Source of the DNA: Natrarchaeobius halalkaliphilus
GTDB lineage: Archaea; Halobacteriota; Halobacteria; Halobacteriales; Natrialbaceae
DNA: 64,000 nt
NCBI RefSeq assembly: GCF_003841485.1
Contig: NZ_REFY01000007.1
Location: 62,001 to 126,000, forward strand
Direction: 5' to 3'
The notes below the pieces were generated by a model, which worked only from the letters and a program-made list of their open reading frames with translations, did no database searches and was not told where the DNA came from. The translations under genes and the position numbers were made by a program. Shown here piece after piece: positions 8,547 through 44,012 of the stretch. Numbering within the stretch: position 1 is the first letter of the stretch; each line of letters starts with the position of its first letter.

Positions 8547-11500
8547 GTATGGACGATCCACTTCCGAGAGTACCGGCGATCGACGACCCGAGAGAACGGA
8601 CGCCGGTGACGGCGACGTTCGAGACCGGAACGGCGAACGACCCACCCGTCGGCACCGCCGGCGACAGTCCCACGACGCTTTCGATCGACGGAACGGCGGT
8701 GACCGTTCCGCCCGGTTCGACGATCATCGACGCGATACAGGCGATCGACGACGGGGTCGTGACCGTCGGCCCGGGAACCGACGCACTCGAGGACGCAGCC
8801 GACGTTCCCGCTCTCTGTTACTACGATCGGGACGGCGACGGGGCCGACGAGATCGGTCCGAGAAGCGAGTGCCGGACCTGTATGGTCGATACCGACGAAC
8901 GGGGCCTCGTCCCCGCCTGTTCGTATCCGGCCGAGGACGGGTTGGCAGTTCGGACCGATACCCCGAACGCCGAGGAGAGCCGGAGCGTCAACCTCGATCT
9001 CGTTCTCTCGAACCACAACCTCCGCTGTACGACCTGTAACGGGAACGGCCGGTGTGAACTGCAGGACGCCGCGATCGACGAGGGCGTCGACCATCCGCGC
9101 TACGGCGTGTTCGCGGACCGAGACGAGTACGAGCCGATCGACGACACTTCCTCGTTCATCCAGATCGACCGGAACAAGTGCATCCTCTGTAACCGGTGCG
9201 TCGACGGCTGCAACGACGTGCAGGTGGAGGGCGTCCTCCGGATCGAGGGCCACGGCGAGGACACACGGATCGGGTTTCAGTCGGAGGCGGAGACGATGGC
9301 CGAGTCGGAGTGCGTCTCGTGCGGGCACTGTGCGACGGTCTGTCCGACCGGCGCGCTCACCGAGAAGGGGATCGGCGGCGTCGGAACGCTGCCGCTTCCC
9401 GGCTTCACGCAACGCAATTCCATCGGAACGGTCGTCGAAACCGACGACGTCGAGACGCTGGACGAGACGACCGCGCCAAACCGAACCCCCGCTCCCGGCG
9501 GAGCCGACGGCCCCCAATCCGCCGGTGGACCGGACGGGGACGAATCGACGGGAGTCGCTCGCTACGCACAAGCCGCCAGGGACCGGGCGACGAATATGGC
9601 CGCCGAGTACGGCCACAGGGCGATGCTGGCCGGCGAACACACCGCCGAACGAATCGCGATGGCGTCGCTGTCAGAGGGGAGGCTCTTCGACGTCGCCGAT
9701 CTCGTCAGCGACGTCCGTCTCGATCGGATCGACGTCGAGGAGACGACGTGTGGCTTCTGTGCGGTCGGCTGTCGGTTCGAGATGGTAGGGAAAGACGGCG
9801 AGACGCTCGGCGTCGAACCGGTCGAAGAACCGTCCGCGGCACCCGCGAACGACTTCTCGACCTGCGTGAAGGGGAAGTTCGGCCACGAGTTCGCCAACAG
9901 CGAACGACGGCTGACGGAGCCGCTCGTCCGAACCGAATCCGGCGAATTTACGGCCGTTTCGTGGGACGAGGCGCTCGAGTACGTCGCCGAGAACCTCGAT
10001 CGGATCCAGCGCGAACACGGCGTAGACGCCGTCGGCTGTCTCGCCTCATCGAAGGGGACGAACGAGGAAGCGTATCTCGTCCAGAAGTTCGCCAGACAGG
10101 TCCTCGGAACGAAAAATATCGACAACTGCGCCCGTCTCTGTCACTCCTCGACGGTCGCCGCGCTCCAGCAGACGGTCGGCTACGGCGCGATGACCAACCG
10201 CATCAACGAGGACGTCGGCGAAGCGGACGCCTACCTCATCACCGGCTCGAACACGACCGAATCCCATCCCGTTCTGGCGACGCGGATCAAGCAAAACGTC
10301 CGTGATGGTGCCGACCTGCTCGTGTTCGATCCGCGCAAGGTCGGAGTCGCCGAACACGCCGACCAGTACACCCGGACCAGACCCGGCTACGACGTTGCCT
10401 GGATCAACGGGCTGATTCGGTACGTCGTCGAACACGACCTCCACGACGAGGCGTTCGTCGAGCGCAACACCACCGGCTTCGTGGACCTCCGCGAGAAGGT
10501 CGAGCCGTACACGCCCGAGCGAGTCGAGGAACTGACCGGCGTTCCGGCGGACGAACTCGAGTCGGCCGCCGAGACGCTCGCGGCGGCCGACACCGTCGTC
10601 TTCGGATGGGCGATGGGAATGACCCAGTCCAGCCACGGCACGCAGAACGTCCTCGCGCTCGCGAACCTCGCGCTCGCGCTCGGTCAGGTCGGGAAACCGG
10701 GTGCCGGCCTCTCCCCGTTCCGCGGCCAGAACAACGTTCAGGGCGGCGGCGGTGACATGGGAACGTTGCCCGGGAGCCTCCCCGGCTATCAGGATCCGGC
10801 CGACGACGACGTCGGAGCGACGTTCGCGGACGCCTGGGGCGAGCGGCCGCCGGCAGAACCGGGACTCACGGTGCCGGAGATGTTCGACGAAGCCAACGCC
10901 GGAAATCTTCGGGGGATGTACGTCGTCGGCGAAAACCCGGCGCTCTCCGAACCGGACGTCGATCACGCGGGGGAGGCCCTCGAGGCGCTCGAGTTCCTCG
11001 TCGTCCAAGACATCTTCATGACCGAGACGGCCGAACACGCCGACGTGGTGCTCCCTGCGGCGACGTCGCCGGAGAAACACGGAACGTTCACGAACACGGA
11101 GCGGCGAATCCAGCGCGTCCGGCCGACGGCCGAACCGCCCGGAACCGCGCGCCAGGACTGGGAGATCACCCAGGAACTCGCGAACCGGCTCGGACGCGAC
11201 TGGGCGTACGATCACCCACGGGAGATCATGGACGAGATCAGCGACCTCGTGCCGATCTACGGCGGCGTCAGCTACGAGCGACTCGAGGAGGGGCCCCAGC
11301 ACGGCCTCCAGTGGCCCTGCCCCACCGAAGATCACCCGGGAACTCCGTACCTGTACGACTACGAGGACGGAAACTTCAACTTCGACGACGGACTCGCGCG
11401 GTTCGTCCCGGCGGACAGCGGCCACCCCGGCGAGATTCCCGACGAGGAGTATCCGCTCACGCTCACGTCCGGTCGCGTCCTCTATCACTGGCATACGGGA

Positions 11501-11869
11501 CAACTCACCCGCCGCGTGGAGGGGCTCATGAGCCACGTCGGGGAGAGCTTCGTCGAGATCCATCCGGAGCTGGCCGCGAAACTCGACGTCGCCGACGGGG
11601 ACTACGTTCGCGTCGAGTCCCGCCGGGGTGAGATCGTCGTCAGAGCGCGGGTCTCCGACCGCGTCGACGCGGGAACGCTGTTCATCCCGATGCACTTTGC
11701 CGCCGGCGCGGTCAACAAACTCACCCAGAAGACGTTCGACCCCCGGTCGGGGATCCCCGAGTACAAGGTCTCGAGCGTCCGCGTCGAAGCGCTCGGCCCG
11801 GAGACCGACGCGGACGTGCTTCGGACGCCCGACGTCGGTGCGGGCGGCGGAACGGCCGTCGACGACTGA
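8543..11869 (+). CDS. fdhA: Formate dehydrogenase catalytic (alpha) subunit, Mo/W-bis-PGD type
   Basis: An 1108-residue cytoplasmic enzyme that oxidises formate to CO2. The N-terminus is NuoG-like: a 2Fe-2S ferredoxin domain (ECRTCMVD and PACSYP), a His-Cys cluster (NHNLRCTTCNGNGRC), and two 4Fe-4S motifs (CILCNRCVDGC and CVSCGHCATVCPTGA). A linker of about 100 residues follows, then the molybdopterin module beginning TCGFCAVGCRFE. The active-site segment NCARLCHSS contains the Cys-His pair typical of formate dehydrogenases, with Cys in place of Sec. The C-terminal MopB domain (about 970-1090) includes LTSGRVLYHWHTGQLTRR. It overlaps the NuoF-like gene by 4 bp. Neighbouring dioxygenase and formamidase candidates could supply formate. 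Confidence 0.93.
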   Translation: MSMDDPLPRVPAIDDPRERTPVTATFETGTANDPPVGTAGDSPTTLSIDGTAVTVPPGSTIIDAIQAIDDGVVTVGPGTDALEDAADVPALCYYDRDGDGADEIGPRSECRTCMVDTDERGLVPACSYPAEDGLAVRTDTPNAEESRSVNLDLVLSNHNLRCTTCNGNGRCELQDAAIDEGVDHPRYGVFADRDEYEPIDDTSSFIQIDRNKCILCNRCVDGCNDVQVEGVLRIEGHGEDTRIGFQSEAETMAESECVSCGHCATVCPTGALTEKGIGGVGTLPLPGFTQRNSIGTVVETDDVETLDETTAPNRTPAPGGADGPQSAGGPDGDESTGVARYAQAARDRATNMAAEYGHRAMLAGEHTAERIAMASLSEGRLFDVADLVSDVRLDRIDVEETTCGFCAVGCRFEMVGKDGETLGVEPVEEPSAAPANDFSTCVKGKFGHEFANSERRLTEPLVRTESGEFTAVSWDEALEYVAENLDRIQREHGVDAVGCLASSKGTNEEAYLVQKFARQVLGTKNIDNCARLCHSSTVAALQQTVGYGAMTNRINEDVGEADAYLITGSNTTESHPVLATRIKQNVRDGADLLVFDPRKVGVAEHADQYTRTRPGYDVAWINGLIRYVVEHDLHDEAFVERNTTGFVDLREKVEPYTPERVEELTGVPADELESAAETLAAADTVVFGWAMGMTQSSHGTQNVLALANLALALGQVGKPGAGLSPFRGQNNVQGGGGDMGTLPGSLPGYQDPADDDVGATFADAWGERPPAEPGLTVPEMFDEANAGNLRGMYVVGENPALSEPDVDHAGEALEALEFLVVQDIFMTETAEHADVVLPAATSPEKHGTFTNTERRIQRVRPTAEPPGTARQDWEITQELANRLGRDWAYDHPREIMDEISDLVPIYGGVSYERLEEGPQHGLQWPCPTEDHPGTPYLYDYEDGNFNFDDGLARFVPADSGHPGEIPDEEYPLTLTSGRVLYHWHTGQLTRRVEGLMSHVGESFVEIHPELAAKLDVADGDYVRVESRRGEIVVRARVSDRVDAGTLFIPMHFAAGAVNKLTQKTFDPRSGIPEYKVSSVRVEALGPETDADVLRTPDVGAGGGTAVDD

Positions 11870-12769: not shown

Positions 12770-13342
12770 CTACAGGTCCTCGGCGTTACGCCAGACGTTC
12801 CACGTGTCGGGGGACTGCGGCCACTGTCGTGCGGGGCGGCCGCCGTCCTCCGGTGCTTCTTCCATCTTCGCGGTTAGCTCGATTGGATAGCCGTCCGGAT
12901 CCGGGAAGTACAGGAAGATGTTGTTACCGGGACCGTGTCGACCAGGTCCGCGATAAATCGGATGGTTTCGAGCCTCGAGTTCATCTGCAGCATCCCGGAT
13001 CGACTGATAGTTCGGAACTTCGAACGCGATGTGATAGATCGGGCCCGTGGTGGGGAGCATCGGTGGTCCGCCCTCGGGGAGATCCTCCTCGAACTCGTGA
13101 AGGTCGAGTTCGAGTTCTCCTCGCTGCTCGAGGACGTCGAGTTCCTCATCGGAGTACTGCGTGATGTTCATTTCGTGGTGGTCGGCCTGCTCTGAGACGG
13201 CAGGAGTGCGCAAGAACGCGACCGTGTCGCCGATTCGATCCGACACCGCCATGTTCATCACGTCGGTGTAGAACTCGATCGTCTGCTCGATATCCCGTAC
13301 TTTGATCGCTACGTGGTCTAGACCCATATTATCAACGACCAT
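12770..13342 (-). CDS. Type I extradiol ring-cleavage dioxygenase (VOC superfamily)
   Basis: A 190-residue vicinal-oxygen-chelate protein that resembles the catalytic domain of BphC/catechol 2,3-dioxygenases, which cleave a dihydroxylated aromatic ring next to the diol. The expected Fe(II) triad is present: His in QADHHEMN, His in IYHIAFEV and Glu in DGYPIELTAK. The loop GPGRHGPGNNIFLYFPDPDG is highly characteristic of extradiol enzymes. The ATG at 13342 lies about 25 nt from a tatatt element (13363-13369), which fits a leaderless start; ATG 13327 (MGLDHVAIKV) is an alternative. It follows the EamA and aspartate dehydrogenase genes on the same strand. The substrate is not determinable from sequence; 7,8-dihydroxykynurenate is my hypothesis. 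Confidence 0.82.
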   Translation of the reverse strand: MVVDNMGLDHVAIKVRDIEQTIEFYTDVMNMAVSDRIGDTVAFLRTPAVSEQADHHEMNITQYSDEELDVLEQRGELELDLHEFEEDLPEGGPPMLPTTGPIYHIAFEVPNYQSIRDAADELEARNHPIYRGPGRHGPGNNIFLYFPDPDGYPIELTAKMEEAPEDGGRPARQWPQSPDTWNVWRNAEDL

Positions 13343-13423
13343 GCAGTATACCCTCGAGCGAGGTATATTGAGTTTTCCGGTTCCAGCGGAGAGTAGTTGA
13401 TAGCCGACTATCACGAGCGACGA

Positions 13424-14305
13424 TCACGTCGACGTTGCCAACAGCCCGACTCCGACGACGACCAGAACGGTGCCGCTGATAACCTGTGGCGTAAACGGTT
13501 CGCGCTCGCGCAAGAACACGAACGTAAATACGAGTGCGAACAGCGGCGTCGTATTGAGGATCGGCGTGACGATCACCACCGTTCCCGAGCGCAACGCAGC
13601 GTACAGACAGATCAGTCCGAGACTCGAGGCGATTCCGGCGAGAACGAAGTAACGAAGGTCGGCAAACGGAATCGACAGCGCCGCTCGGTGGTTCGACGCG
13701 ACGGCGAAAAATGCGGCCGCGACGAGCCAGGACGTCGTGAGGTTGACCGCGGCACCGACGGCGGGTTCGGGAACGAGTTCCATTCCCACGTTTCGTAACA
13801 GCTGGACGCTCCCGTAGATGACTGCGCCCGCGATCGGGAACAGTAGATCGCGATACCGGACGTCAACTGCAGAACCATCACCGCGGCCCGCAGTGGCAAG
13901 TAAGATTCCACCGGCGATCGCCGCAAGCGCTCCGACACCGCCCTGACGGGTCAGCGTCTCTCCGAGCAAGAGGATAGCAAGCACGACCGAAACGAGCGGA
14001 TTCGAATTGCTAATCGGCAGCGTGAGATTGACACCGACCCGCTCTAGACCGATGTAGTTACAGAGACGACCGATGACGGGCGCGAACAGACCGGCGAGGA
14101 TGAAGTATCGCCACGCCCAGAGATCGACCGTTACGTCGTAGAGCGCGAGGCTGATCGCCCAGAGAACGACGACGTTGACACTGATCGTCGCGAACATGGC
14201 CGCCATCGGCGTCGATCGTTCGACTCCGAATCGGACGAGAACGGACGAGGTAGCGAACGCGGCAGCCGTCCCGAGCGCGAGAAGGACCTGAACTGGAAGC
14301 TCCAT
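13424..14305 (-). CDS. EamA/DMT-family membrane transporter
   Basis: A 293-residue protein with about ten hydrophobic helices arranged as two EamA repeats, the fold of drug/metabolite transporters that move small organic molecules. The internal repeat is visible as GRLCNYIGLERVGVNLTLPI in the first half and LICLYAALRSGTVVIVTPIL in the second. It starts 24 bp after the aspartate dehydrogenase gene and is followed by the extradiol dioxygenase gene, so the three probably form one transcript. A second EamA gene lies at 17446-18339. The cargo is unknown; a pathway substrate or product is likely from position. Confidence 0.85.
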   Translation of the reverse strand: MELPVQVLLALGTAAAFATSSVLVRFGVERSTPMAAMFATISVNVVVLWAISLALYDVTVDLWAWRYFILAGLFAPVIGRLCNYIGLERVGVNLTLPISNSNPLVSVVLAILLLGETLTRQGGVGALAAIAGGILLATAGRGDGSAVDVRYRDLLFPIAGAVIYGSVQLLRNVGMELVPEPAVGAAVNLTTSWLVAAAFFAVASNHRAALSIPFADLRYFVLAGIASSLGLICLYAALRSGTVVIVTPILNTTPLFALVFTFVFLREREPFTPQVISGTVLVVVGVGLLATST

Positions 14306-14329
14306 CGAATCGGACTCCGAAAGACTCGC

Positions 14330-15154
14330 TTACGTTCCGACGTCGATCGCCGTCTCGAGACTCCGAAGCTTTTCGATCGCGGAAATCGCCGCCAGATAGC
14401 TGGTCTTCGGGTTCGTAGGCGACGGAACGTTCTGAACGGTCGTCTCGATGTGTCCCATGTCTCCGTCAGCACTGATCCGGTGGACGTTGTTCTCCTCGTC
14501 GGGATCTGCGACGATTCGAACGGCCGTCTCGTCGGGGCCGATCCCCGCGAGGCTGAGCGCGACCGCGACGTTGATGTTCGACGGGAACGCCGCCGCAGCC
14601 TCCGTCGCCGGTCCCTCGAAGATCACCGTCGGCTCGTCGACGGCCGAGAGATCGATCCCGTTTTCGACGACGTAGGGAGCACCCTCGAGGCCCGCCGGCG
14701 GCTTCGTCGTGGTCAGCGAAACGGACTCGAGATCACCTGTCAGAGCCGCCGCCTTGATCGCATCGAGGCCGGCGATCGCTCCCGACGGCGCATAGAGCCG
14801 GCCGTCGCTCTCCTCTGCGGCGGCAAATACGTCCTCTCGGAGGTCGTCTGCGGCGAGCGCACCGACGCTCAACAACAGACAGTCCCGGTCGGCAGCGAGC
14901 GCATCTGCGGCGATTTCCTCGACGGCGGTCTGTCCCGCGGCCTCGAGAACGAGGTCCGCCTCGAGGAGTTCCGACGGCTGGGTTGCAGCGGTCGGTTGGG
15001 ACCGGTCGTCGAAGAGGTCTCGAATCGCCGTGACGTTCTCCGGATGTCGGTCGTAGACGACCGCAAGGTCTGCCGACAGCGTGCCATCAGCGATCGCACG
15101 CGCGATTTCGGTCGCAATCGTTCCACAGCCAAAGATACCGATCGATCGCGTCAT
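14330..15154 (-). CDS. nadX: Aspartate dehydrogenase-like protein
   Basis: A 274-residue protein of the NadX/DUF108 family, which interconverts L-aspartate and iminosuccinate/oxaloacetate with NAD(P). The N-terminal Rossmann motif is GIFGCGTIATEIARAI. The family core is clear: APSGAIAGLDAIKAA, FPSNINVAVALSLAGIG, VADPDEENNVHRISADGDMG and PSPTNPKTSYLAA. The ATG at 15154 has a TATA-like aattatta element 22-31 nt upstream. It is divergent from the NicX-like gene (155-bp shared control region) and leads the minus-strand set nadX-eamA-extradiol. In NAD synthesis this enzyme feeds NadA, but here no nad genes are near, so a catabolic role in handling a four-carbon amino or imino acid is plausible. 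Confidence 0.83.
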   Translation of the reverse strand: MTRSIGIFGCGTIATEIARAIADGTLSADLAVVYDRHPENVTAIRDLFDDRSQPTAATQPSELLEADLVLEAAGQTAVEEIAADALAADRDCLLLSVGALAADDLREDVFAAAEESDGRLYAPSGAIAGLDAIKAAALTGDLESVSLTTTKPPAGLEGAPYVVENGIDLSAVDEPTVIFEGPATEAAAAFPSNINVAVALSLAGIGPDETAVRIVADPDEENNVHRISADGDMGHIETTVQNVPSPTNPKTSYLAAISAIEKLRSLETAIDVGT

Positions 15155-15175
15155 ATCACCGGTTCTCGAGGGCAG

Positions 15176-15185
15176 ACTAATAATT
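15176..15185 (-). promoter_or_regulatory. TATA element of the aspartate dehydrogenase gene
   Basis: On the minus strand this reads aattattagt, 22-31 nt before the ATG at 15154. It lies in the divergent control region shared with the NicX-like gene. Confidence 0.5.
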
Positions 15186-15272
15186 GTAGTGGGATCGAGA
15201 CGGGTAGTACTGATGACAGGGGACCGGGACGAATAATGCTGAGTAACAAGCGAGAACAGCCGCAGGCACACA

Positions 15273-15283
15273 AATTATTTATG
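15273..15283 (+). promoter_or_regulatory. TATA element of the NicX-like gene
   Basis: aattatttatg lies 27-37 nt before the ATG at 15310. Confidence 0.55.
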
Positions 15284-15309
15284 CTTCCACCCGAATCATC
15301 AACTGTATC

Positions 15310-16362
15310 ATGGAAGCTGCTGGACTACTAGTGCCGATGTTCCGTCGGCAGATGGAACACTGTCAAGTGAACGAAGACGAAGCCGTCGCGGTCGTTACCG
15401 ACGTTAAAAGCAATCGCGAACACGTCGCCGCGAGCTTTGCAGCGGCCCAGGATATCGGGGCCGAGGTCTTCGAAGTACAGATTCCGGAGTACGGACGCAA
15501 CTCCGTCGGTGCCGAAGTCTCCGCCGGCCAGGGTGGCAGCCTTCGACTCCCCCGCGGACCCGTCGAAGCGTGCAAGAGCGCCGACATGGTGTTCGACTTT
15601 ACCCTCGAGGGATTCATCCACGTCCCGGAACGGGGCGAGATCCGCGATGCCGGTACCCGTATCCTTCGCGTCGGTGCACGCGAGCCGTTCGTGCTCCGTC
15701 GGTTGATGCCCTGGGAGCCCGAAGAGGCCCGGGCCGTCAAAGAGAAGGTACAGGCACACCGTGATCTGCTCGAATCGGCCGACGAAATGCGGGTCACCTC
15801 CGAGTACGGCACCGACGTGACGATGGAAGTGAGCCCGGAGACGGCGTTCGACTCCTACGGATTCGTCGACGAGCCCGGCAAGTGGGACGTCTGGGGCCAG
15901 AACATGGTCTCGAACTATCCGACGAACGTCAACGGAACGGTCGTCATCGCCGCCGGCGACTACAACGTCGTCCCGTTCAGTGATTACATCGATTCGTCGA
16001 TCGAGTGCGTCGTCGAGGACGGCTTCATCGAGGAGATCAACGGCGACGGCGGCGACGCCGAGTTGATGCGTGGCCACATGGAAAGTTACAACGATCGAGA
16101 CGTCTTCGCCACGAGTCACTTCGGCTGGGGACTCAACGAAAACGGAACGTTCTACAACATGGCGATCAAGGACCGGAAGCCCGACGAGACAGGCGTGAGC
16201 GCGAGCGAAGGCCGCGTCTGGGAAGGGAACATGCTCTGGAGTACGGGGCCGAACACCCACCAGGACCGATATACGAACTGTCACTACGACATCGCACAGA
16301 AGAACTGTAGCGTCTATCTCGATGGCGAACCGGTCGTCCTCGAAGGCGATCTCGTCGAGTAA
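15310..16362 (+). CDS. NicX-like 2,5-dihydroxypyridine-type ring-cleavage dioxygenase
   Basis: A 350-residue protein, the same length as Pseudomonas putida NicX as I recall it. NicX opens 2,5-dihydroxypyridine to N-formylmaleamate using Fe(II) and O2 and shares the fold of M29 aminopeptidases. Matching segments are FVDEPGKWDVWG, ATSHFGWGLNENG, LWSTGPNTHQ, NCHYDIAQKNC and YLDGEPVVLEGDLVE. The likely iron ligands are His270 (TSHFGW), His325 and Asp327 (NCHYD), which agree with the H..HxD ligands known for NicX. It stands alone between the divergent nadX gene and the convergent BphB-like gene. Many databases would label it an aminopeptidase. The exact substrate is unknown; a hydroxylated pyridine is most likely. 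Confidence 0.8.
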   Translation: MEAAGLLVPMFRRQMEHCQVNEDEAVAVVTDVKSNREHVAASFAAAQDIGAEVFEVQIPEYGRNSVGAEVSAGQGGSLRLPRGPVEACKSADMVFDFTLEGFIHVPERGEIRDAGTRILRVGAREPFVLRRLMPWEPEEARAVKEKVQAHRDLLESADEMRVTSEYGTDVTMEVSPETAFDSYGFVDEPGKWDVWGQNMVSNYPTNVNGTVVIAAGDYNVVPFSDYIDSSIECVVEDGFIEEINGDGGDAELMRGHMESYNDRDVFATSHFGWGLNENGTFYNMAIKDRKPDETGVSASEGRVWEGNMLWSTGPNTHQDRYTNCHYDIAQKNCSVYLDGEPVVLEGDLVE

Positions 16363-16415
16363 GACAGTCCCGTCAGTTCGAAGATCGAGCCGTATTCGAA
16401 ACCTCGTTTCTCAAG

Positions 16416-17255
16416 TTACGCCGTATCGACGCCGTCGGTGACGAACTCGAGCGCTCGGCCCGAGACGTTACCGATACCGCGGACGTTCCGTCCGAGATCT
16501 GCACGAACGATCGTTCCCGTCATCGGCCTCGAGTTCTCCTCGGAGGCCAACAGGACGTATGCCCCAGTGTAATCGGCCGGCGTCGGAACGATTCCGGCGG
16601 GATGAACCGACGGATCGAACTCCGACTCGTCGAGAACGCCTCCCTCCTCGCGCTCGAGAGATTCGATTCCCGAGAGGTTCGTCGGCACGTAGCCGGGTGC
16701 GACCGCGTTGACGCTGACCGACGGAGAGAGTTCGAACGCGAGCTGGCGAACGATACCGGCGATCGCGTGTTTGGACGGAACGTAAAGCGAGCCGCCGCCG
16801 TCCGGCTCGAAGCTCGCGCCCGAGGCAGTGAACACCATTCGACCGTTCGTTTCGACAAGTTCGGGCAGTGCAGCTTTCGCACCGAGGAGATAGCCCAGAA
16901 CGTTGATCTCGAAGAGATCACGGAAACTGTCGGCAATTGCCTCGTCATCATCGGGCAACTCCGCGATCGTGACGTTGTCGTCGAAGACACCGGCGTTGCC
17001 GACGAACACGTCGAGTTTTCCGAACGCGTCGACCGTCCGTTCGACGGCGTCCTCGTTATCCGAGAGTCGCGTCACGTCCCCCGTGCTCGTGACGACTGAA
17101 TCACCGAACTCGTCGGAGAGATCCGCCAGACCGTCCGCTGAGACGTCGAGTATGCCGACGGACGCACCTTCCTCAACGAATCGTCGAACGACGGCACGTC
17201 CGAGACCGGACGCACCACCGGTTACCAGTACAACACGATTGTCGAGCCAACTCAT
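16416..17255 (-). CDS. BphB-like cis-dihydrodiol dehydrogenase (SDR)
   Basis: A 279-residue short-chain dehydrogenase. It contains the NAD motif VTGGASGLGRAVV, the NAG motif (FVGNAGVFD), the catalytic Ser region TASGASFEPDGGG and YVPSKHA with the YxxxK pair. INVLGYLLGAKAALPELV, GGGSLYVPSKHAIAGIVRQL and PADYTGAYVLLAS resemble BphB-type enzymes, which re-aromatise the cis-dihydrodiol made by a Rieske dioxygenase. The ATG at 17255 (MSWLDNR) is preferred; the longer open frame upstream runs over the promoter of the divergent EamA gene. The Rieske genes begin 1.2 kb away, and the two functions form a natural pair. Confidence 0.8.
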   Translation of the reverse strand: MSWLDNRVVLVTGGASGLGRAVVRRFVEEGASVGILDVSADGLADLSDEFGDSVVTSTGDVTRLSDNEDAVERTVDAFGKLDVFVGNAGVFDDNVTIAELPDDDEAIADSFRDLFEINVLGYLLGAKAALPELVETNGRMVFTASGASFEPDGGGSLYVPSKHAIAGIVRQLAFELSPSVSVNAVAPGYVPTNLSGIESLEREEGGVLDESEFDPSVHPAGIVPTPADYTGAYVLLASEENSRPMTGTIVRADLGRNVRGIGNVSGRALEFVTDGVDTA

Positions 17256-17445
17256 ACGAAATTCATGGGCGGTCGACCGGAAATATCTTCCTGTCGGTGT
17301 TCGACGACGAATATAATTGCGGTGATACGTACTCGAAGAGATATTTCTAAGTGCCTTGGCTCCAACAGGGTGGTACAATGGCAACCGCGGTAATCCTCTG
17401 GAAACGACGGACGGCGCCGACCGATCGAAACGGCACCCACAGACG

Positions 17446-18339
17446 ATGCCAGTAACGATCGACGTCTTTCTGCTTTCGATCCTGGCAGCCGCTCTCTGGG
17501 GATTGAATCCGGTGTTCATGAAAAAAGGGCTCGAGCGGGATGGTAACGCAATTCTCGCGTCAGTCGTCGCGGCCACGGTGAGTTTCGGTCTCTTCGTGAC
17601 GATCGCAACCGTCGTCTACGGACCGTCGGAGTCGTATCTGGGCGTATCACGGACGGGAGCCGCCATCTTCCTCTTCGGCGGCGTTATCGGCAGTTCGCTC
17701 GGCCGACTCGTCGTCTACGCCGGCGTCGACAGGGTCGGCGTGAGCGTCAACACGGCGATTTTGAACACTCGGCCGCTGTTCGCCGCGATTTTGGCCGTTG
17801 GGCTGCTCGGAGAACCGATTACCGGATGGCTCGGTCTGGGTATCCTCGTGATCGTGGTCGGGGTCGTTCTCGTGTCGCTGTCTCGCGGCGGCGATATTCG
17901 CGGCTGGAAGTGGTACGAGCTCGCGTTTCCGCTGTTTGCTGCGATCGCGTACGGGGCGGGAAACGTCGTTCGACGGTACGGATTCACCGCGACGGATACG
18001 GACGTTCTCTCGGCGTTCGTTCTCAACGAGTTCGCAGCGCTCGGAATCCTGATGGGCTACGCGCTCGTCCGACACGGACGGAAACTGTTCGTCGTGTCTC
18101 GGCGGACGTACGCTCTCTTCGCCGCAGGTGGCCTTCTGTCGAGTCTCGCACTGCTGTCGCTGTTTACCGCCCTCAGTCGTGGTCCGGTGATCGTCGTCGA
18201 TCCACTCGCTGGAACGTCGCCGCTGTTCGCCGCGCTGTTTACCGTGATCTTTCTCAAGCGCGTCGAGCGGGTGACTCGCGGTGTCGTCATCGGTGCAGCC
18301 GTCATCATCCTCGGCGTCGTTTTCATCACGCTCGGATGA
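17446..18339 (+). CDS. EamA/DMT-family membrane transporter (second copy)
   Basis: A 297-residue protein with about ten transmembrane segments in two EamA repeats (LWGLNPVFMKKGLERDGN in the first, SLALLSLFTALSRGPVIVVD in the second). It is related to, but clearly different from, the EamA protein at 13424-14305. The ATG at 17446 gives a normal-length first helix; in-frame codons further upstream are not ATG. It lies 80 bp before the Rieske dioxygenase genes on the same strand. Two DMT transporters around one ring-cleavage set suggest dedicated uptake or efflux of the aromatic compound. Confidence 0.85.
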   Translation: MPVTIDVFLLSILAAALWGLNPVFMKKGLERDGNAILASVVAATVSFGLFVTIATVVYGPSESYLGVSRTGAAIFLFGGVIGSSLGRLVVYAGVDRVGVSVNTAILNTRPLFAAILAVGLLGEPITGWLGLGILVIVVGVVLVSLSRGGDIRGWKWYELAFPLFAAIAYGAGNVVRRYGFTATDTDVLSAFVLNEFAALGILMGYALVRHGRKLFVVSRRTYALFAAGGLLSSLALLSLFTALSRGPVIVVDPLAGTSPLFAALFTVIFLKRVERVTRGVVIGAAVIILGVVFITLG

Positions 18340-18419
18340 TCGATAGAATCCGAGCCAGACATGAAGGTGATTCGATAATATCCACAACTTAGATAAAGCT
18401 GCGCGCGATTGTTCCTAGT

Positions 18420-19775
18420 ATGGCACAGAACAGGTCAGGAGGCACGGGAGGGAGTCGCTCCTCCATCGATTCGAAACTCGAGCGAATGGCCGACGCGCTC
18501 GAGGAGGGCGAAGCACTCCTTGAGATCCTTCACGACGACGAGGTGTTCGAACGGGAACTCGAGGAGATTTTCGCCAAAAGCTGGGTCTACATCGGCCACG
18601 AATCGGAGATTCCGGAAGAAGGCGACTATCGACAGCGGAGCATCGGAAAGGACCCGTTCATCTTCGTCAGGGACGAAAACGGCGAGGTCCAGGTGCTCTG
18701 GGATAGCTGTCGACACCGCGGCACGAAGCTCTGTCGAGCCGAAAAGGGGAACACGACGCACTTTCGGTGTCCGTACCACGGCTGGACGTACCGAAACACG
18801 GGAGAACTCGTCGGCGTTCCCCAGAAGGGCAACGGCTTTCCGGACCTCGACATGGAGGAGAAGGGGCTCCACGGAGCACCAAACGTCGAGAGCTACAACG
18901 GTCTCGTCTTCGCCTCGCTCGACCCGGACGCACCGGACCTAGAGACCTACCTCGGCCCGTCGGCGTGGTACCTGGATCTGTACTTCAAGCTGGCCGATAT
19001 GGAAGTGATCGGAGATCCACACCGCTGGGAGATCGATACGGACTGGAAGACGCCGTCCGAAAACTTCTACGGCGACAACTACCACGTCCCGATGGGCCAC
19101 AAGTCAGCGATCGACGTGGGTATCGGAAGCGCGACGGCGAAAGGCGAAAAGGAATCCGAACTGTACGCGATTTCGGACGTCGGCGGCCACGCGTTCAGCA
19201 TTTACCAGATACCCGGGGAAGACTTCTTCTGGGGACACCCTCCCGAAGTAACCGAAACGTTCCACCCGGAACGACTCACCGACGAACAGTATCAGATCGC
19301 GCGACAGTCCGGCGTCTCGCTCGGAACCATCTTCCCGAACCTCTCGTTTATCTACCTCGGTGGCTCGGACGATCCCGAAAAAGACACCGTCGGGACGTTC
19401 TGTCTGCGTCAGTGGCAGCCCATCGAACCCGGAAAGATGGAGGCCTGGAACTGGATTATGGCTCCCAAAGACGCACCACAGGAGTACAAAGATCGAGTCT
19501 ACGAGGTCGGCGTCGGAACGTTCAGCCTCTCGGGCAACTTCGAGGTCGACGACATCGGGATCTGGGACGGCATTCCCGAAGCGGCCGACAGCGTCTTTGC
19601 AGAACAGGTAAACGCGACCACGGTCTTCTCGATGGGACGTGGCGAAGACACACTGGCCGAAGTAGACGACTCGTGGCCCGGTCCAGGGACGGTTTACAGG
19701 GAAGGCGGAATGACGGACGAGAACCAACTCGAGTTCTACCGAAAATGGCACCAGACCATCAGCGAGGCCCACTAA
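18420..19775 (+). CDS. Rieske ring-hydroxylating dioxygenase, alpha subunit
   Basis: A 451-residue catalytic subunit that adds both atoms of O2 to an aromatic ring, giving a cis-dihydrodiol. The Rieske 2Fe-2S motif is complete: Cys97-x-His99 (SCRHRG), 17 residues, then Cys117-x2-His120 (RCPYHGW). The mononuclear iron site is also complete: Asp219/His222/His227 in GDNYHVPMGH, with an Asp in the FEVDDIGIWDG region as probable third ligand. The beta-subunit gene begins 1 bp after the stop. No reductase or ferredoxin gene is in the cluster, so electrons must come from elsewhere. The family fits substrates from benzoates to polycyclic and N-heteroaromatic compounds; sequence alone does not decide. 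Confidence 0.92.
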   Translation: MAQNRSGGTGGSRSSIDSKLERMADALEEGEALLEILHDDEVFERELEEIFAKSWVYIGHESEIPEEGDYRQRSIGKDPFIFVRDENGEVQVLWDSCRHRGTKLCRAEKGNTTHFRCPYHGWTYRNTGELVGVPQKGNGFPDLDMEEKGLHGAPNVESYNGLVFASLDPDAPDLETYLGPSAWYLDLYFKLADMEVIGDPHRWEIDTDWKTPSENFYGDNYHVPMGHKSAIDVGIGSATAKGEKESELYAISDVGGHAFSIYQIPGEDFFWGHPPEVTETFHPERLTDEQYQIARQSGVSLGTIFPNLSFIYLGGSDDPEKDTVGTFCLRQWQPIEPGKMEAWNWIMAPKDAPQEYKDRVYEVGVGTFSLSGNFEVDDIGIWDGIPEAADSVFAEQVNATTVFSMGRGEDTLAEVDDSWPGPGTVYREGGMTDENQLEFYRKWHQTISEAH

Positions 19776-19776
19776 T

Positions 19777-20295
19777 ATGTGGGACATAGACGCACGCTCG
19801 GTTCGCGAATCGTGTGAGAAGTTCCTCTACACGGAAGCGCAGCTGCTCGACGACCGGGATCTACTCGAGTGGCACGAAACCATCATTACCGACGACATCG
19901 AGTACCGAATCCCGATCCGAACGACCAAAGAACGCTCCGCTGAAACGGAGTTCAGCGACGAGTCGTTTCACATGATCGAGGACTGGGGGTCGTTGAAGGT
20001 GCGAGTCGAGCGGATGGAAAACGACTTCGCGTGGTCTGAAGATCCACCCTCACGGAATCGACGGTTCGTCTCGAACGTCCGGGTAACCGACGAGAATCCG
20101 GAGAATGCGGAGGTGTCGATCAGAAGTAATCTCCTGATCCATCGGCTCCGGGCCAGCGATACCGATCCCGATCTGCTCTCGGCCGAACGTCGCGATACGT
20201 TGCGACGGGTGGACGGATCGTGGCAGCTGACGGAGCGAACAGTGTTGCTCGATCACACCGTCATCGGTACGCCGTCGCTTTCGATCATCCTATGA
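19777..20295 (+). CDS. Rieske dioxygenase, beta subunit
   Basis: A 172-residue protein of the ring-hydroxylating dioxygenase beta family (NTF2-like fold), which packs with the alpha subunit into an alpha3beta3 enzyme. Typical segments are FLYTEAQLLDDRDLLEWHETIITDDIEYRIPI near the N-terminus, RNRRFVSNVRV in the middle and RRDTLRRVDGSWQLTERTVLLD near the end. It starts 1 bp after the alpha gene and shares an ATGA overlap with the next gene, so all three are translated from one message. Confidence 0.88.
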   Translation: MWDIDARSVRESCEKFLYTEAQLLDDRDLLEWHETIITDDIEYRIPIRTTKERSAETEFSDESFHMIEDWGSLKVRVERMENDFAWSEDPPSRNRRFVSNVRVTDENPENAEVSIRSNLLIHRLRASDTDPDLLSAERRDTLRRVDGSWQLTERTVLLDHTVIGTPSLSIIL

Positions 20296-20759
20296 CGAAC
20301 CAGTACTACCCGACCACCGACGTCGACCGCATCGTCGTCGAGACGGGAGACACGCGCGTCGACGTGACGAAAGTCCGGACACCGACCGGAGAACGGATCC
20401 AGATCGAACACGACGATCTGGGTCAGATCCGTCTCGATGCGGTCGAACTCGAGGCGCTGACCTGGCAGGACGAAGCGTTCTTCGCGGATCTCGTCGACGG
20501 CGAGTACGACTACCGCAACGTCGATCCCCGTCCGAAATCTGCCGCCGATCTCCAGGTCAGCAACGAATACGCTCTCGCACGGCTTCGCGGAAGCGACGAC
20601 GGTGCGGGCGTGTCCCTTACCGCACCGAAGATGGGGTACGGAATCGGCATCGACGCCCGCGTCCTTGCAGCCGTTGTCACCAGACCGAAGACGTTCTTTT
20701 CCGAACTGTTGCGAACGCCGTACGGTCCGGACGATGACGACGATGTCCACGTCTTTTAG
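20292..20759 (+). CDS. Unrecognised 155-residue protein coupled to the Rieske dioxygenase
   Basis: An acidic soluble protein, coupled by an ATGA overlap to the beta-subunit gene. I recognise no family. It appears to be a mix of beta strands and short helices (IVVETGDTRVDVTKVRTPTG, LTWQDEAFFADLVDGEYDY) and ends in an Asp-rich tail (GPDDDDDVHVF). There are no Cys residues, so it is not a ferredoxin, and no flavin or NAD motif is visible, so it is not the missing reductase. Translational coupling argues for a subunit, chaperone or dedicated downstream enzyme of this dioxygenase. Confidence 0.75.
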   Translation: MTNQYYPTTDVDRIVVETGDTRVDVTKVRTPTGERIQIEHDDLGQIRLDAVELEALTWQDEAFFADLVDGEYDYRNVDPRPKSAADLQVSNEYALARLRGSDDGAGVSLTAPKMGYGIGIDARVLAAVVTRPKTFFSELLRTPYGPDDDDDVHVF

Positions 20760-20833
20760 GAGCTCGTGATCGGCGTTCGGTTCAAAATCGTAATAATCGA
20801 AATGTCTTTTGCAAATAACTTCCGAGGAGGTGA

Positions 20834-21175
20834 TCATCCACGGCGTGGCGAAACTGAGTTTTTTAGAGATTTCTCGAAGAGTCGACGATCGAGGGTGCTC
20901 GAGGATCTTTCAGATCTGTTCGAGCAGGCCGAGATCGATGAGCCAACCGGGGAAGGGGAGATAAATGCCAAGTTAGTGCGCACATTTACGCGTGTATTAA
21001 CAGATATGTGATAGGAAGTATCCAGGATGAACAGAATCCACGTTTCTGAATTCTGCTCGAGAACCCGTTTAAACAGCGTACAGACGTTCTCTTTTGACTG
21101 ATCCTTAGCAAGCGTAAAGACACTCTCACCGTTGAATGTGTAGCAACCGATCGCTAGTTCGTCAAGCCCCATCAA
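20834..21175 (-). pseudogene. Remnant of an IS630-type transposase
   Basis: The first 75 or so residues (about 20950-21175) contain GCYTFNGESVFTLA, KENVCTLFKRVLEQN and WILFILDTSYHIS. These resemble the core of IS630-type transposases around the second catalytic Asp (normally LDNASxH). The rest of the frame is unrelated and the DDE Glu region is missing. A C-terminal fragment of the same type lies at about 38.1-38.2 kb. This marks the left side of the AT-richer segment that begins with IDO. Confidence 0.45.
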
Positions 21176-21249
21176 CTGTCATTCGAGAGTTTGATCGTCA
21201 ACGAATCACAGTCAATGCGAGTTGTCGGTTACAACCTAGGGGATGAGCA

Positions 21250-22410
21250 CTAGTCTATTCGAGCAGCCTCTGTTTCTTCTTTCATCTTCTGTAGATAATA
21301 CGCATAATTAGTCCCACCAGTTCCCGTTGTATCGCCGGTTTCTTCACGAATGTACTGACTTATTTGTCTAAAATGAACTTTTCTGAACGTTATAAGGTTT
21401 GTTATGCAATTATTATACGCCCTACGTAATTCGTCTGAACCTTGTTTTGCTACGTATTCTTTGATGTCAGGTCCGGTATCGAGTTCCGTAATGGTATTAC
21501 GATGAAACGGTGGCATATAGCTCCGCATGTCGTCAAGCTTCTCTATCATCTTGGTCGCGTCATGTTTAATACCAAGTGTGGCGTCTATCGATGGCAGAAT
21601 GGAACTTTGTGCACCAGATCCTCCTCGAAGCGATTGTGGTGTTCCCTCTAGCTCGTTAACACCTTCAAATATGATTTCGTCAAACCCGTAGTAATACGGC
21701 CGATACTCATTTGCAAATACCGATGTATCGTTTCCTTCGGTCATTCGCTGCATGATTGAGGTTTGTTCAACGAGGGACTCCTCAATTGTATGTAATTTTC
21801 TCAGTAGTAATTCAGGATCATCCTCACGAACGGCCTGTTGGGCGGTTGAGCACGCAGTTATTGCGGGGCCAGCGGCGGCTTCAATTGCGACGTGAATAAT
21901 TACAAACCAGCGTTCATCGTCGTGGTGTGTGAAACTCTGAATTAGGTCCAAGTTCTCAACCGATAAGTCACCATCAGGATCTTTTCGTTGGAAGTTATGA
22001 AGACAGAGAAGGTCGTATGAGAGAATGGGTTTCCTCCCGATCTCCTCTGACGTTTCATAGAGCGGAATCGCCATTCCAGCTGGGAGTACAGAATCGTCTT
22101 CTCCAATTAGTTGACCGTAGTTTACGTATGCACTTGCAAAAAAACCACTCAGCTGACATAGACGGATCATCTCTCGGTCGTTGAGCTTATCTAATAACCC
22201 AGCTGGTGGTTTCTCGAGAGATCGAAGAACAGGTCTCACTTCACCAGATTCGATAAGATCGGGGAGGTTGTCCCCGACCTGGTCCAACCGCTGTAGATAC
22301 TCACTCGTCATAGAATCGTATTGATCAGTATTAAACGAAGTTAGTGGATCAGGCGTTGGTAAGAACCCACGCTGGTTGTCAATGCTTTCATCCAGTTTTG
22401 CTTCAGCCAT
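21250..22410 (-). CDS. Indoleamine 2,3-dioxygenase (IDO) family heme enzyme
   Basis: A 386-residue heme dioxygenase, close in length to human IDO1. Known members open the indole ring of tryptophan to N-formylkynurenine. Family signatures run end to end: RGFLPTPDPLTSF, LPAGMAIPLYETSEEIGRKP, RGGSGAQSSILPSIDATLGI, SYMPPFHRNTI, LRRAYNNCITNLITFRKVHF and TGTGGTNYAYYLQKM. His346 (RKVHFRQI) aligns with the human proximal heme ligand. By my hand alignment the distal position of human Ser167 is a His (FVIIHVAIEAAAG), as in tryptophan 2,3-dioxygenases. The ATG at 22410 is chosen over an in-frame TTG at 22437. It lies downstream of an aminotransferase gene on the same strand. IDO is very unusual in archaea as far as I know. 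Confidence 0.9.
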   Translation of the reverse strand: MAEAKLDESIDNQRGFLPTPDPLTSFNTDQYDSMTSEYLQRLDQVGDNLPDLIESGEVRPVLRSLEKPPAGLLDKLNDREMIRLCQLSGFFASAYVNYGQLIGEDDSVLPAGMAIPLYETSEEIGRKPILSYDLLCLHNFQRKDPDGDLSVENLDLIQSFTHHDDERWFVIIHVAIEAAAGPAITACSTAQQAVREDDPELLLRKLHTIEESLVEQTSIMQRMTEGNDTSVFANEYRPYYYGFDEIIFEGVNELEGTPQSLRGGSGAQSSILPSIDATLGIKHDATKMIEKLDDMRSYMPPFHRNTITELDTGPDIKEYVAKQGSDELRRAYNNCITNLITFRKVHFRQISQYIREETGDTTGTGGTNYAYYLQKMKEETEAARID

Positions 22411-22684
22411 GTCAATAGGATCCGCATCCCAAAGCAAGTTAATATTTTCTGGATAAGTGAATACGGTACTGGGTATTACTATCGATGCTTCTCCAATTCT
22501 ATGCGCTAATGTACGTTGTCGTAGTACAACTTTTGCCGTCTGATTTGGATTGGCTGTTAACTCCTTGTTCAGAAGTGAAACACAAGAGCCATGTGTTACT
22601 ATTAACCAGTAGTCTATGAAGTGTTAATAACCAAAAGTGGATCCGCATGAGAAATATACCGCATTTGCCGTATAAGTGGGACGT

Positions 22685-23854
22685 TTATTGGACCGATTCA
22701 GCGTACTTTTCGATCCGATCGAACCCGAGCTCAAGCCGATCGAGGCTGTTCGCAAAACTAATCCGAATATAATCATCGAGTCCCGGACCAAACCCAGTTC
22801 CAGGAACAGTTACGACGCCGTGTTCTTCGAGCAGCTGCTTGGAGATCGTAGTACTATTTCTCTCGAGCTCTCCACAATCAAGGAAAGCGTAAAATGCTCC
22901 TTCGGGTTCTGGGCAGACGACTCCGGGAAGCGATTCAACTCGTTCGACAACATAGTCGCGCCGTTCGCTTAGTGAAGAGAAAATCGATTGGACCGGTTCT
23001 TGATCTCCCGTTAACGCTGCGACGGCAGCCTGCTGAGATGGGGCAGGTGCACACGCAATTATACTTTCGTGAAACTCCAATGCGGCATCAATAATCTCAC
23101 TATCGGCTGCGAACCAGCCGACACGCCATCCAGTCATTGCATAGGGTTTCGAACAGGATCCAACCGTAATTACATGCTCTGGGTATGCTGTGTTCGCGGC
23201 TATCGGGGTTGACTCCTGGTTGTAGATAATGTCTTTGTACACCTCATCAGCGATGACGTATGCATCATGGTTAGCAGCGGCTTTGACAACCTCTGCCGTC
23301 GCAGATGAATCGAGCACTTGACCGGTTGGGTTCGACGGGGTAGCAAGAAGAACTGCAGCAGTATCATCAGTTATTTTATCGGTCAGCAGTTCGATATCGA
23401 GCGAGAAACCTCGTTCTTCATCTAGGGGGACGTTTGTTATTTCTCCACCAGCCATAATTGCCTGAATTTGATAGTTCGGCCAAGAAGGAGTCGGTATAAT
23501 CACCTCGTCACCGGGGTCAACAACAGTCAAACATGCCAATGCGAGCGCCTCGACAGCGCCAGCCGTGACGATGATTTCTGACTCGGGATCATATTCTGAG
23601 TCGAGATCCGTAGCGATGGCAGTACGCAGTTCAGGAATGCCAGCGCTCGTGGTATAGTGGGTTGCACCGTTTCGTAGTGCTTTCGCTGCTGAGTCGATGA
23701 TATGTTCCGGTGTGTCGAAATCGGGCTCTCCTATCTCTAAGTGAACGAGGTCTCTATCACTATGCTGACGGGCGAGGTCGAACATTTCCCGAATCGGTGA
23801 TCGAGTTACTCGCTTAGTACGGTTCGCTACCGGTAAGCTACCATCTTGACACAT
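22685..23854 (-). CDS. Class I (aspartate/aromatic-type) aminotransferase
   Basis: A 389-residue fold-type I PLP aminotransferase. It has the N-terminal VHLEIGEPDFDTPEHI motif, ATPSNPTGQVLD, YVIADEVYKDI, the PLP lysine Lys236 in VGSCSKPYAMTGWRVGW and the C-terminal substrate-carboxylate Arg in YIRISFANS. Members transaminate aspartate, aromatic amino acids or kynurenine and cannot be told apart by sequence. The ATG at 23854 has a tatacc element 26-35 nt upstream and gives standard length. It is 275 bp upstream of IDO on the same strand. If the pair acts together, a kynurenine aminotransferase giving kynurenate would be logical. Confidence 0.88.
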   Translation of the reverse strand: MCQDGSLPVANRTKRVTRSPIREMFDLARQHSDRDLVHLEIGEPDFDTPEHIIDSAAKALRNGATHYTTSAGIPELRTAIATDLDSEYDPESEIIVTAGAVEALALACLTVVDPGDEVIIPTPSWPNYQIQAIMAGGEITNVPLDEERGFSLDIELLTDKITDDTAAVLLATPSNPTGQVLDSSATAEVVKAAANHDAYVIADEVYKDIIYNQESTPIAANTAYPEHVITVGSCSKPYAMTGWRVGWFAADSEIIDAALEFHESIIACAPAPSQQAAVAALTGDQEPVQSIFSSLSERRDYVVERVESLPGVVCPEPEGAFYAFLDCGELERNSTTISKQLLEEHGVVTVPGTGFGPGLDDYIRISFANSLDRLELGFDRIEKYAESVQ

Positions 23855-23879
23855 ATTGTAAGGATCACAGAGAACCGAC

Positions 23880-23889
23880 ATATACCTTA
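23880..23889 (-). promoter_or_regulatory. TATA element of the aminotransferase gene
   Basis: On the minus strand this reads taaggtatat, about 30 nt before the ATG at 23854. Confidence 0.45.
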
Positions 23890-30774: not shown

Positions 30775-30937
30775 ATTGAGCGAACGGCTGATCGTGTGAC
30801 GATGAGTTTTGAGTGAGAATACATGTTGTTTTTTAACTTCGTACTCGATGAGATGCTACACTATTGCTAACCTAGCGGCGAAAACTTCCCCTACTGGGGA
30901 AATACTTATTTCACCAGGCAATCGTGATAAGCTCACG

Positions 30938-31276
30938 ATGGCAAAAATATCATCGGAAACGGAGTTCACTGTGTACGACCTCCGCGTCGAATGTGTCGAG
31001 ATAAATGGCGACGCAGAAGGCAGTTACGATGTTGGAGACTATTTCGAAGTTCACGGCGAAAATCTTGTTTTTCCGGAAAAACAGACGTTCCCAATATACG
31101 CGCTCTCAGCACTCATTCCCCTCTTACCGGCAAAGCAGCGCGAAAGCGATTCGAACGATTGGATGTCGACTCCTGTGAAAGTGACTGATCCAGATCCGGA
31201 CGTGGACGGCACTTTCGAAATCAGCCGAATCGGAGAACGGACTGTCACTCCGAAAAGTGCATCTGATGGGGAGTAG
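30938..31276 (+). CDS. TIGR04076-like small protein
   Basis: A 112-residue soluble protein. FTVYDLRVECVEINGD, the middle SYDVGDYFEVHGENLVFP and the ending GTFEISRIGERTV resemble the TIGR04076 group of small proteins of unknown function. The usual Cys-rich loop is absent. The ATG at 30938 is used because the upstream extension crosses the probable promoter (aatacttattt, 30901-30911). It stands between the class V aminotransferase and the amino acid transporter. Confidence 0.65.
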   Translation: MAKISSETEFTVYDLRVECVEINGDAEGSYDVGDYFEVHGENLVFPEKQTFPIYALSALIPLLPAKQRESDSNDWMSTPVKVTDPDPDVDGTFEISRIGERTVTPKSASDGE

Positions 31277-43991: not shown

Positions 43992-44012
43992 GTGCAAAGG
44001 TATTAGATTGTG

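Follow-up and report, generated by a model that had tools for sequence, protein, structure and literature searches.

The question raised by this locus is whether a cluster of oxygenase and dehydrogenase genes in the haloarchaeon Natrarchaeobius halalkaliphilus could serve the degradation of kynurenate, a neuroactive and immune-active product of tryptophan; which microbes remove it is a matter of interest beyond metabolism. The DNA analyzed, referred to here as the window, is a stretch of 64,000 nucleotides (contig NZ_REFY01000007.1, positions 62,001 to 126,000) that forms part of a 3.5-Mb genome (G000). In the classical kynurenate route the ring is dioxygenated at positions 7 and 8, the dihydrodiol is dehydrogenated, and extradiol cleavage at the 8,8a bond leaves a pyridine whose carboxy-oxo-propenyl side chain subsequently undergoes reduction, decarboxylation and oxidation. 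To our knowledge, the enzymes of bacterial kynurenate degradation, described biochemically around 1960, are still without genes. Pseudomonads degrade kynurenate to glutamate, alanine and organic acids, as cited in two reports (PMC11354673; PMC5770815), and no gene assignment for this degradation was found in the literature searched. An earlier note on this DNA had proposed that a single 11-kb gene set, beginning with indoleamine 2,3-dioxygenase (IDO), encodes the whole kynurenate branch. What we found is a conserved operon that is split in this genome by an insert carrying IDO. It is our tentative view, held with confidence close to evenly balanced, that the core operon serves to break down an N-heteroaromatic acid that is bicyclic and carboxylated, with kynurenate or a close relative the most likely, and that the IDO block either feeds the operon or lies there by coincidence. 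A 4-oxygenated quinoline-2-carboxylate of the kynurenate type is the best hypothesis for the substrate.

Open reading frames (ORFs) together with profile and structure-database searches verified all of the genes that the earlier note had named, about where it had placed them: IDO, an aminotransferase, a Rieske oxygenase pair, a short-chain dehydrogenase/reductase (SDR), a VOC protein, a NicX-like dioxygenase, an aspartate dehydrogenase (AspDH), formate dehydrogenase and an HSL-family hydrolase. The window proteins were then compared by tblastn with the operon loci of 11 other haloarchaea from several families, including the sister species N. chitinivorans (G001), Halostagnicola sp. A56 (G078), Natrialba chahannaoensis, Halostella pelagica, Haloferax elongans, Haloarcula amylovorans, Salinigranum rubrum and Halocatena salina. 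The set conserved among them consists of the VOC protein, an EamA transporter, AspDH, the NicX-like enzyme, the SDR, Rieske alpha and beta, HypX, a thiamine pyrophosphate (TPP) enzyme, an alpha/beta hydrolase and an IclR regulator, often with an importer (NMT1-type ABC or sodium:solute symporter). The first half of the operon in the window is as follows.

12770-13342, minus strand: single-domain VOC protein of the extradiol-dioxygenase type (PF00903, 1e-17)
13424-14305, minus strand: EamA transporter (PF00892, 2.2e-26), kept in most operons
14330-15154, minus strand: aspartate dehydrogenase (PRK13304), with an ortholog in 11/11 other operons
15310-16362, plus strand: NicX-like Fe(II) ring-cleavage dioxygenase (PDB 7cn3, E 1.4e-54)
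16416-17255, minus strand: SDR of the cis-dihydrodiol dehydrogenase type (BphB/HcaB-like; HcaB/BphB NCBIfam types best), conserved
17446-18339, plus strand: second EamA transporter (ORF), with a close ortholog solely in N. chitinivorans (88%)
18420-19775, plus strand: Rieske oxygenase alpha subunit (PF00355, 1.1e-20)
19777-20295, plus strand: Rieske oxygenase beta subunit (PF00866, 2.4e-35)
20292-20759, plus strand: HypX, a partner protein of haloarchaeal Rieske oxygenases, with no Pfam or NCBIfam match

The second half, comprising the TPP enzyme, the hydrolase, the importer and the IclR regulator, lies at 41.2-49.5 kb, beyond the interval considered in the earlier note.

41227-42888, plus strand: TPP-dependent enzyme of the acetolactate synthase/2-oxoacid decarboxylase type (three TPP_enzyme Pfam domains)
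42945-43997, minus strand: NMT1/SsuA-type substrate-binding protein of an ABC importer (PF13379/PF09084)
45699-46517, plus strand: ABC importer permease, SsuC/TauC type (PF00528; 83% to the N. chitinivorans ortholog)
46860-47732, plus strand: alpha/beta hydrolase (Abhydrolase_6/DUF1749)
47799-48566, minus strand: SsuB-type importer ATPase (92% to the N. chitinivorans ortholog)
48770-49549, minus strand: IclR-family regulator, PcaR/BhcR-like (PF01614, 4.2e-39), with a homolog in nearly all operons

The TPP enzyme and the alpha/beta hydrolase both have orthologs in 11/11 other operons, at 65-88% and 63-88% identity, respectively, and the TPP enzyme matches profiles of the acetolactate synthase type, all below their equivalog cut-offs. 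The binding protein is kept in the operons of N. chitinivorans and of two further genomes (G123 and G275), while a sodium:solute symporter is found in some others.

The two halves are separated by a block of different composition, the GC content being 0.60 at 12.77-20.77 kb, 0.50 at 20.77-41.19 kb and 0.59 at 41.19-49.6 kb; at third codon positions the value is 0.41 for IDO versus 0.70-0.77 for the operon genes. In N. chitinivorans (L035) the operon is uninterrupted, with about 100 bp between HypX and the TPP gene, whereas the window has about 20.4 kb in the same gap, and homology between the two species ends just past the HypX stop codon and restarts just upstream of the TPP gene, giving clean junctions. 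A search for repeats at the ends of the block yielded nothing convincing. The low-GC block is thus a foreign-looking insert between two halves of one operon.

20760-41190: low-GC insert between HypX and the TPP gene, splitting the operon (GC content and comparison with N. chitinivorans)
21250-22410, minus strand: IDO (PF01231, E 1.3e-73)
22685-23881, minus strand: class I aminotransferase, candidate kynurenine aminotransferase (PF00155, 5.2e-69)
25384-26556, plus strand: second copy of tryptophan synthase beta (TrpB), with a 68% ortholog near IDO in several haloarchaea
28512-29438, minus strand: HSL-family hydrolase, candidate kynurenine formamidase (LipP1 HSL family, 362 bits)

Besides these, the insert (21-41 kb) encodes PdxS, a class V aminotransferase, a LIV-type transporter, a nitrilase, SerA and SerB. 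The insert genes are found in none of the 11 other operons, the exceptions being an HSL ortholog near half of the Halostagnicola sp. A56 operon and a weak SerA-family match near that of Halocatena. SerA, SerB, the class V aminotransferase, PdxS and TrpB all have additional copies elsewhere in the genome, and this group, together with IDO, would fit a route from indole and serine through tryptophan to kynurenine with its own supply of serine and pyridoxal phosphate. A related group of SerA, TrpB, nitrilase and LIV-type transporter genes, 47-86% identical to those of the insert, occurs on contig 26 of a sister genome (G002; L138, 8766-16945) that has neither IDO nor the operon, which suggests a mobile module. 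In addition, a small protein gene of the insert (30809-31276) is shared with the IDO-remnant locus of Halostagnicola sp. A56 (L144, 12702-13031).

These data bear directly on the proposal of a single gene set. Rieske, SDR and VOC genes clustered without IDO, an arrangement that the earlier note had named beforehand as contradicting it, are what the 11 other haloarchaea have. Co-occurrence of IDO with the catabolic genes was not borne out either: among 392 Halobacteria genomes the NicX ortholog is present in 10 and IDO in 18, both of them together only in G000 (Fisher p 0.38), and at the family level (125 genomes) the NicX ortholog occurs in 6, IDO in 12 and both in 2 (p 0.10). Since the operon is free of IDO in 11 haloarchaea, the two show no association, and IDO sits on a low-GC insert, the claim of one 11-kb gene set falls, and the kynurenate branch as one conserved set, with IDO or a tryptophan 2,3-dioxygenase (TDO) and an aminotransferase kept beside the Rieske operon, was rejected. 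Kynurenate remains the foremost hypothesis for the substrate of the core operon, of which IDO and the aminotransferase are not parts; the IDO block is a strain-specific feeder or a coincidence.

The IDO assignment itself is firm, with 248.6 bits against a PF01231 cut-off of 26 and the proximal heme His aligned with that of human IDO1. In other haloarchaea IDO is usually close to kynureninase, often with TrpB and an HSL hydrolase (about 60% identical to that of the window), an arrangement that belongs to the anthranilate branch. One such locus (L082, 6877-10528), where IDO, kynureninase and the HSL hydrolase lie side by side, may well be an archaeal operon for converting tryptophan to anthranilate, with the HSL protein serving as kynurenine formamidase. 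A haloarchaeal kynureninase query found no kynureninase in G000 at E 1e-20, while the enzyme is present in nearly all other IDO-bearing haloarchaea tested; This branch thus appears to be missing from G000, and it is an aminotransferase that adjoins IDO there. This protein has a class I fold, its closest solved relatives are the aspartate/aromatic aminotransferases of P. horikoshii, and gene context makes it a candidate kynurenine aminotransferase. Its closest relative (73%) is in Halostagnicola sp. A56, where it adjoins an IDO remnant (residues 120-386), a frameshifted HSL gene and a SerA ortholog. That genome also carries the operon, on another contig than the IDO-aminotransferase pair, and has a 73.6% ortholog of the window HSL protein near the Rieske half of the operon. 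Both of the IDO-aminotransferase pairings found therefore sit in operon-bearing genomes, which is suggestive, the pattern having been noticed after the fact in two genomes of which one is broken and incomplete. The presence of IDO in G000 without kynureninase and with an aminotransferase, the sole other such pair being in an operon-bearing genome, favors kynurenate.

The same data can be read differently, namely that the operon acts on some other N-heteroaromatic acid taken up from outside (a different quinoline or isoquinoline carboxylate, or an N-containing biaryl), the IDO block being a tryptophan/serine island that has no connection with it and arrived at this site by chance. IDO is missing from all other copies of the operon and shows no association with it across species, dedicated importers stand beside many copies, and the second copies of serA, serB, trpB, pdxS and the class V aminotransferase give the insert an agenda of its own. 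Against this reading, the insert brings a kynurenine-forming pair and an aminotransferase without kynureninase, a pairing that recurs in one other operon-bearing genome. Furthermore, AspDH fits kynurenate, whose ring, with its nitrogen beside a carboxylated carbon and an oxygen at C4, can give an aspartate skeleton when opened. We consider this alternative unlikely, yet the most serious of the rivals.

The flanking genes that the earlier note had drawn into the pathway are both real.

8543-11869: formate dehydrogenase (gene identity verified)

In the 11 other genomes tested, formate dehydrogenase never neighbors the operon, and the HSL hydrolase belongs with the IDO context; the two were rejected as members of one pathway set. 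A transposase-like ORF (3462-4781) lies upstream of the formate dehydrogenase genes.

The core enzymes were further examined for conserved residues. In the Rieske alpha subunit, the CxH...CxxH cluster ligands and the mononuclear iron His/His are kept in the 11 alpha sequences tested, and the adjoining beta gene (PF00866) identifies a two-subunit ring-hydroxylating oxygenase, the closest solved structures being naphthalene and phthalate dioxygenases. Neither a sequence nor a gene for a kynurenate 7,8-dioxygenase was found in the literature searched. The VOC protein keeps the 2-His-1-Glu iron pattern and an RGPGRHG motif in nearly all 11 orthologs, as expected of a type I extradiol dioxygenase; HpaD and catechol 2,3-dioxygenase profiles match this single-domain form, yet far under their cut-offs. 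The SDR reached none of the NCBIfam cut-offs (PRK06200, 314/330 bits; HcaB, 306.8/450; BphB, 273.3/459.85) and may at most be said to work like a BphB/HcaB cis-dihydrodiol dehydrogenase. AspDH scored 290.7 bits with PRK13304 against a cut-off of 267 and is thus of the NadX type. HypX stands beside every haloarchaeal Rieske locus compared; its predicted fold has two beta-beta-beta-beta-alpha units (pLDDT 85.5), with weak PUR-alpha-like matches of low TM-score in a PDB search. A second Rieske alpha/beta/HypX locus, 48% identical to the first, was seen on contig 6 of the same genome (L031, 57565-58851).

The naphthalene- and phthalate-type relatives, together with an SDR and a beta subunit that resemble HcaB and HcaF, would suit the catabolism of a carbocyclic aromatic acid of the phthalate, phenylpropionate or benzoate type, with the NicX-like enzyme and AspDH in side roles. 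Nevertheless, each of these profile matches is under its equivalog cut-off, the operon has no CoA ligase, thiolase or central catechol/gentisate enzymes, and a conserved enzyme of a pyridine-cleaving family and an AspDH are left unexplained without a ring nitrogen, so that this explanation seems to us very improbable.

The NicX-like protein is informative about the ring. Alignment to 7cn3 showed that it keeps H265, S302, H318 and D320, the iron ligands of NicX (PMC7910607), as well as H105 and R293. Of the substrate ligands, however, E177 is replaced by Ser and H189 by Val in the window protein and in all aligned operon orthologs, whereas homologs in Pseudomonas BYT-5 and Peribacillus retain Glu and His. 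Since a NicX double alanine mutant of Glu177 and His189 is inactive on 2,5-dihydroxypyridine (PMC7910607), that compound is an unlikely substrate, as judged from the sequence, and was dropped as a candidate on the two changed pocket residues. The role that the earlier note gave this enzyme thus needs to be revised, and the altered pocket points to a ring-cleavage reaction so far undescribed.

A pocket changed in this way also argues against simple hydroxypyridine catabolism of the Rhodococcus type, in which Rieske, SDR and NicX would act successively on one pyridine ring, as with 2-hydroxypyridine in Rhodococcus rhodochrous PY11, and the VOC, TPP and AspDH enzymes would handle a side chain or later products. 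Dihydroxylation of pyridine by a dioxygenase, as reported for strain PY11 (PMC6525221), counts for this possibility, as do the Rieske-SDR-NicX clusters of Rhodococcus pyridinivorans YF3 (L075) and Natribaculum longum (L080) and the Rieske-NicX linkage on contig 9 of N. chitinivorans (L139). On the other hand, the operon has no maleamate amidase or maleate isomerase, its TPP and VOC enzymes would go unexplained, and a Rieske tree, in which an extremely long-branched row (L014) was disregarded, placed the operon enzymes in one group separate from other NicX-linked ones, with mixed support at the fork (61/99). We therefore regard it as improbable. The two haloarchaeal Rieske-NicX clusters (L080, 5854-11891; L139, 8212-15153) have Gln in place of NicX Glu177, and L080 additionally has SDR, VOC and nitrilase-like genes; they probably represent another N-heterocycle pathway.

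For the kynurenate-type substrate, the order of reactions that we infer from gene content, conservation, the insertion and active-site residues, with all substrates proposed on the same basis, would run as follows. The importer would bring in the substrate, and Rieske alpha/beta, with general cellular electron carriers, would form a cis-dihydrodiol on the benzene ring that the SDR would re-aromatise to a diol. The VOC enzyme would then open this ring by extradiol cleavage to give a carboxylated dihydroxypyridine that bears a 2-oxoacid side chain, which the TPP enzyme would decarboxylate. Opening of the remaining ring might fall to the NicX-like iron dioxygenase together with the alpha/beta hydrolase, and AspDH might take up a four-carbon amino-acid fragment (iminosuccinate or aspartate) from the N1-C2(COOH)-C3-C4(O) part of kynurenate. 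The IDO, formamidase-like HSL and aminotransferase of the insert could feed the operon from within, converting tryptophan to kynurenine and then to kynurenate. The reaction of the NicX-like enzyme is the weakest step of this proposal. No other ring pathway known to us calls for an AspDH together with a TPP decarboxylase that acts after extradiol cleavage.

When plasmid records were searched for AspDH and Rieske proteins, a bacterial operon with similar slots emerged, comprising IclR, Rieske alpha with ferredoxin/reductase, SDR, VOC, cupin, alpha/beta hydrolase, a second SDR, TPP enzyme, AspDH, aldehyde dehydrogenase and an MFS or NMT1-type importer. It is widespread (Acinetobacter, Klebsiella, Burkholderiales, Rhodobacterales, Streptomyces) and was read in Acinetobacter, Klebsiella, Caballeronia, Novosphingobium, Pseudosulfitobacter, Paracoccus and Nitratireductor, and partially in Streptomyces.

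L156, 12368-25083: bacterial operon in Klebsiella
L154, 647-12750: bacterial operon in Acinetobacter
L157, 10031-22973: bacterial operon in Pseudosulfitobacter

The classical kynurenate steps correspond to the slots Rieske, SDR, VOC, second SDR, TPP decarboxylase and aldehyde dehydrogenase, and all of these slots are present in the bacterial operon, which thus supplies the aldehyde dehydrogenase and the second SDR that are missing in the archaeal cluster. One Caballeronia copy has an extra RidA-family protein that would fit an enamine or imine intermediate. None of the NCBIfam names of the Klebsiella operon members gives a substrate, and none was named for the operon in the literature searched, the sole match being a mucin transcriptome in which Acinetobacter baumannii A1S_0956-0958 (AspDH, aldehyde dehydrogenase and TPP genes), probably members of the same operon, rose about 2.2-2.4-fold with mucin (PMC5757984).

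Several observations weigh against kynurenate. NicX acts on a para-dihydroxypyridine, and kynurenate would leave a meta pattern. The earlier claim of exactly one candidate per step was too strong, as the archaeal cluster holds no candidate for a ferredoxin/reductase, a side-chain reductase (or second SDR) or an aldehyde dehydrogenase. Archaeal and bacterial enzymes share little identity (TPP 24-26%, VOC 24-28%, SDR about 30%, AspDH 33-43%), and as they are only distant relatives, a shared pathway rests on slots and not on orthology; a special kinship of the two AspDHs was rejected, the archaeal one being 47% identical to an AspDH of an ectoine-uptake cluster. The association between IDO and the operon is not significant in the class or in the family, and neither the 11 other haloarchaeal operons nor the bacterial operons read have IDO, TDO or an aminotransferase inside. 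TDO was absent from all 11 operon-bearing genomes searched, which rules it out as a hidden tryptophan oxygenase there. Finally, the Halostagnicola sp. A56 IDO is truncated, the HSL gene next to it carries a frameshift, and completeness of the assembly is 83%. Kynurenate is kept as the best substrate nonetheless, owing to the TPP decarboxylase-like enzyme and the near-identical slots of the bacterial operon. The broader claim, that the archaeal operon and its bacterial counterpart are the missing kynurenate gene set, that the archaeal NicX-family reaction is new, and that the insert completes a route from tryptophan to central metabolism that bypasses anthranilate, is possible but rather doubtful.

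Compared with known systems, the archaeal operon has conserved enzyme classes for the dioxygenation, dehydrogenation, extradiol cleavage and decarboxylation of the classical pseudomonad kynurenate pathway, whereas the reductase and aldehyde dehydrogenase steps of that pathway are without a candidate in the cluster and the published scheme leaves no room for the NicX-like enzyme. That enzyme shares its fold family and iron ligands with NicX of Pseudomonas putida and differs from it at E177 and H189. The 2-hydroxypyridine catabolism of strain PY11 and the YF3 plasmid cluster likewise bring together a Rieske enzyme, an SDR and a NicX-family dioxygenase, but the lower pathway of the YF3 cluster is represented by isochorismatase-like and Asp/Glu-racemase-like genes, the TPP enzyme and AspDH are lacking there, and the NicX residues differ. 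The haloarchaeal IDO-kynureninase-HSL-TrpB neighborhood (G066, G064, G075 and G058) has IDO, HSL and TrpB orthologs in common with the insert and carries the kynureninase of the anthranilate branch, while the insert has an aminotransferase instead. The conserved archaeal operon and its match in common bacteria, among them several human-associated ones, are candidates for the kynurenate steps that are without genes. The bacterial operon has nearly the same slots, IclR control and, in some copies, an NMT1-type importer, as in the archaeon, but it differs in its one-subunit Rieske alpha with a ferredoxin/reductase of its own, in its two-domain VOC protein, and in the cupin that stands where the archaeon has the NicX-like protein.

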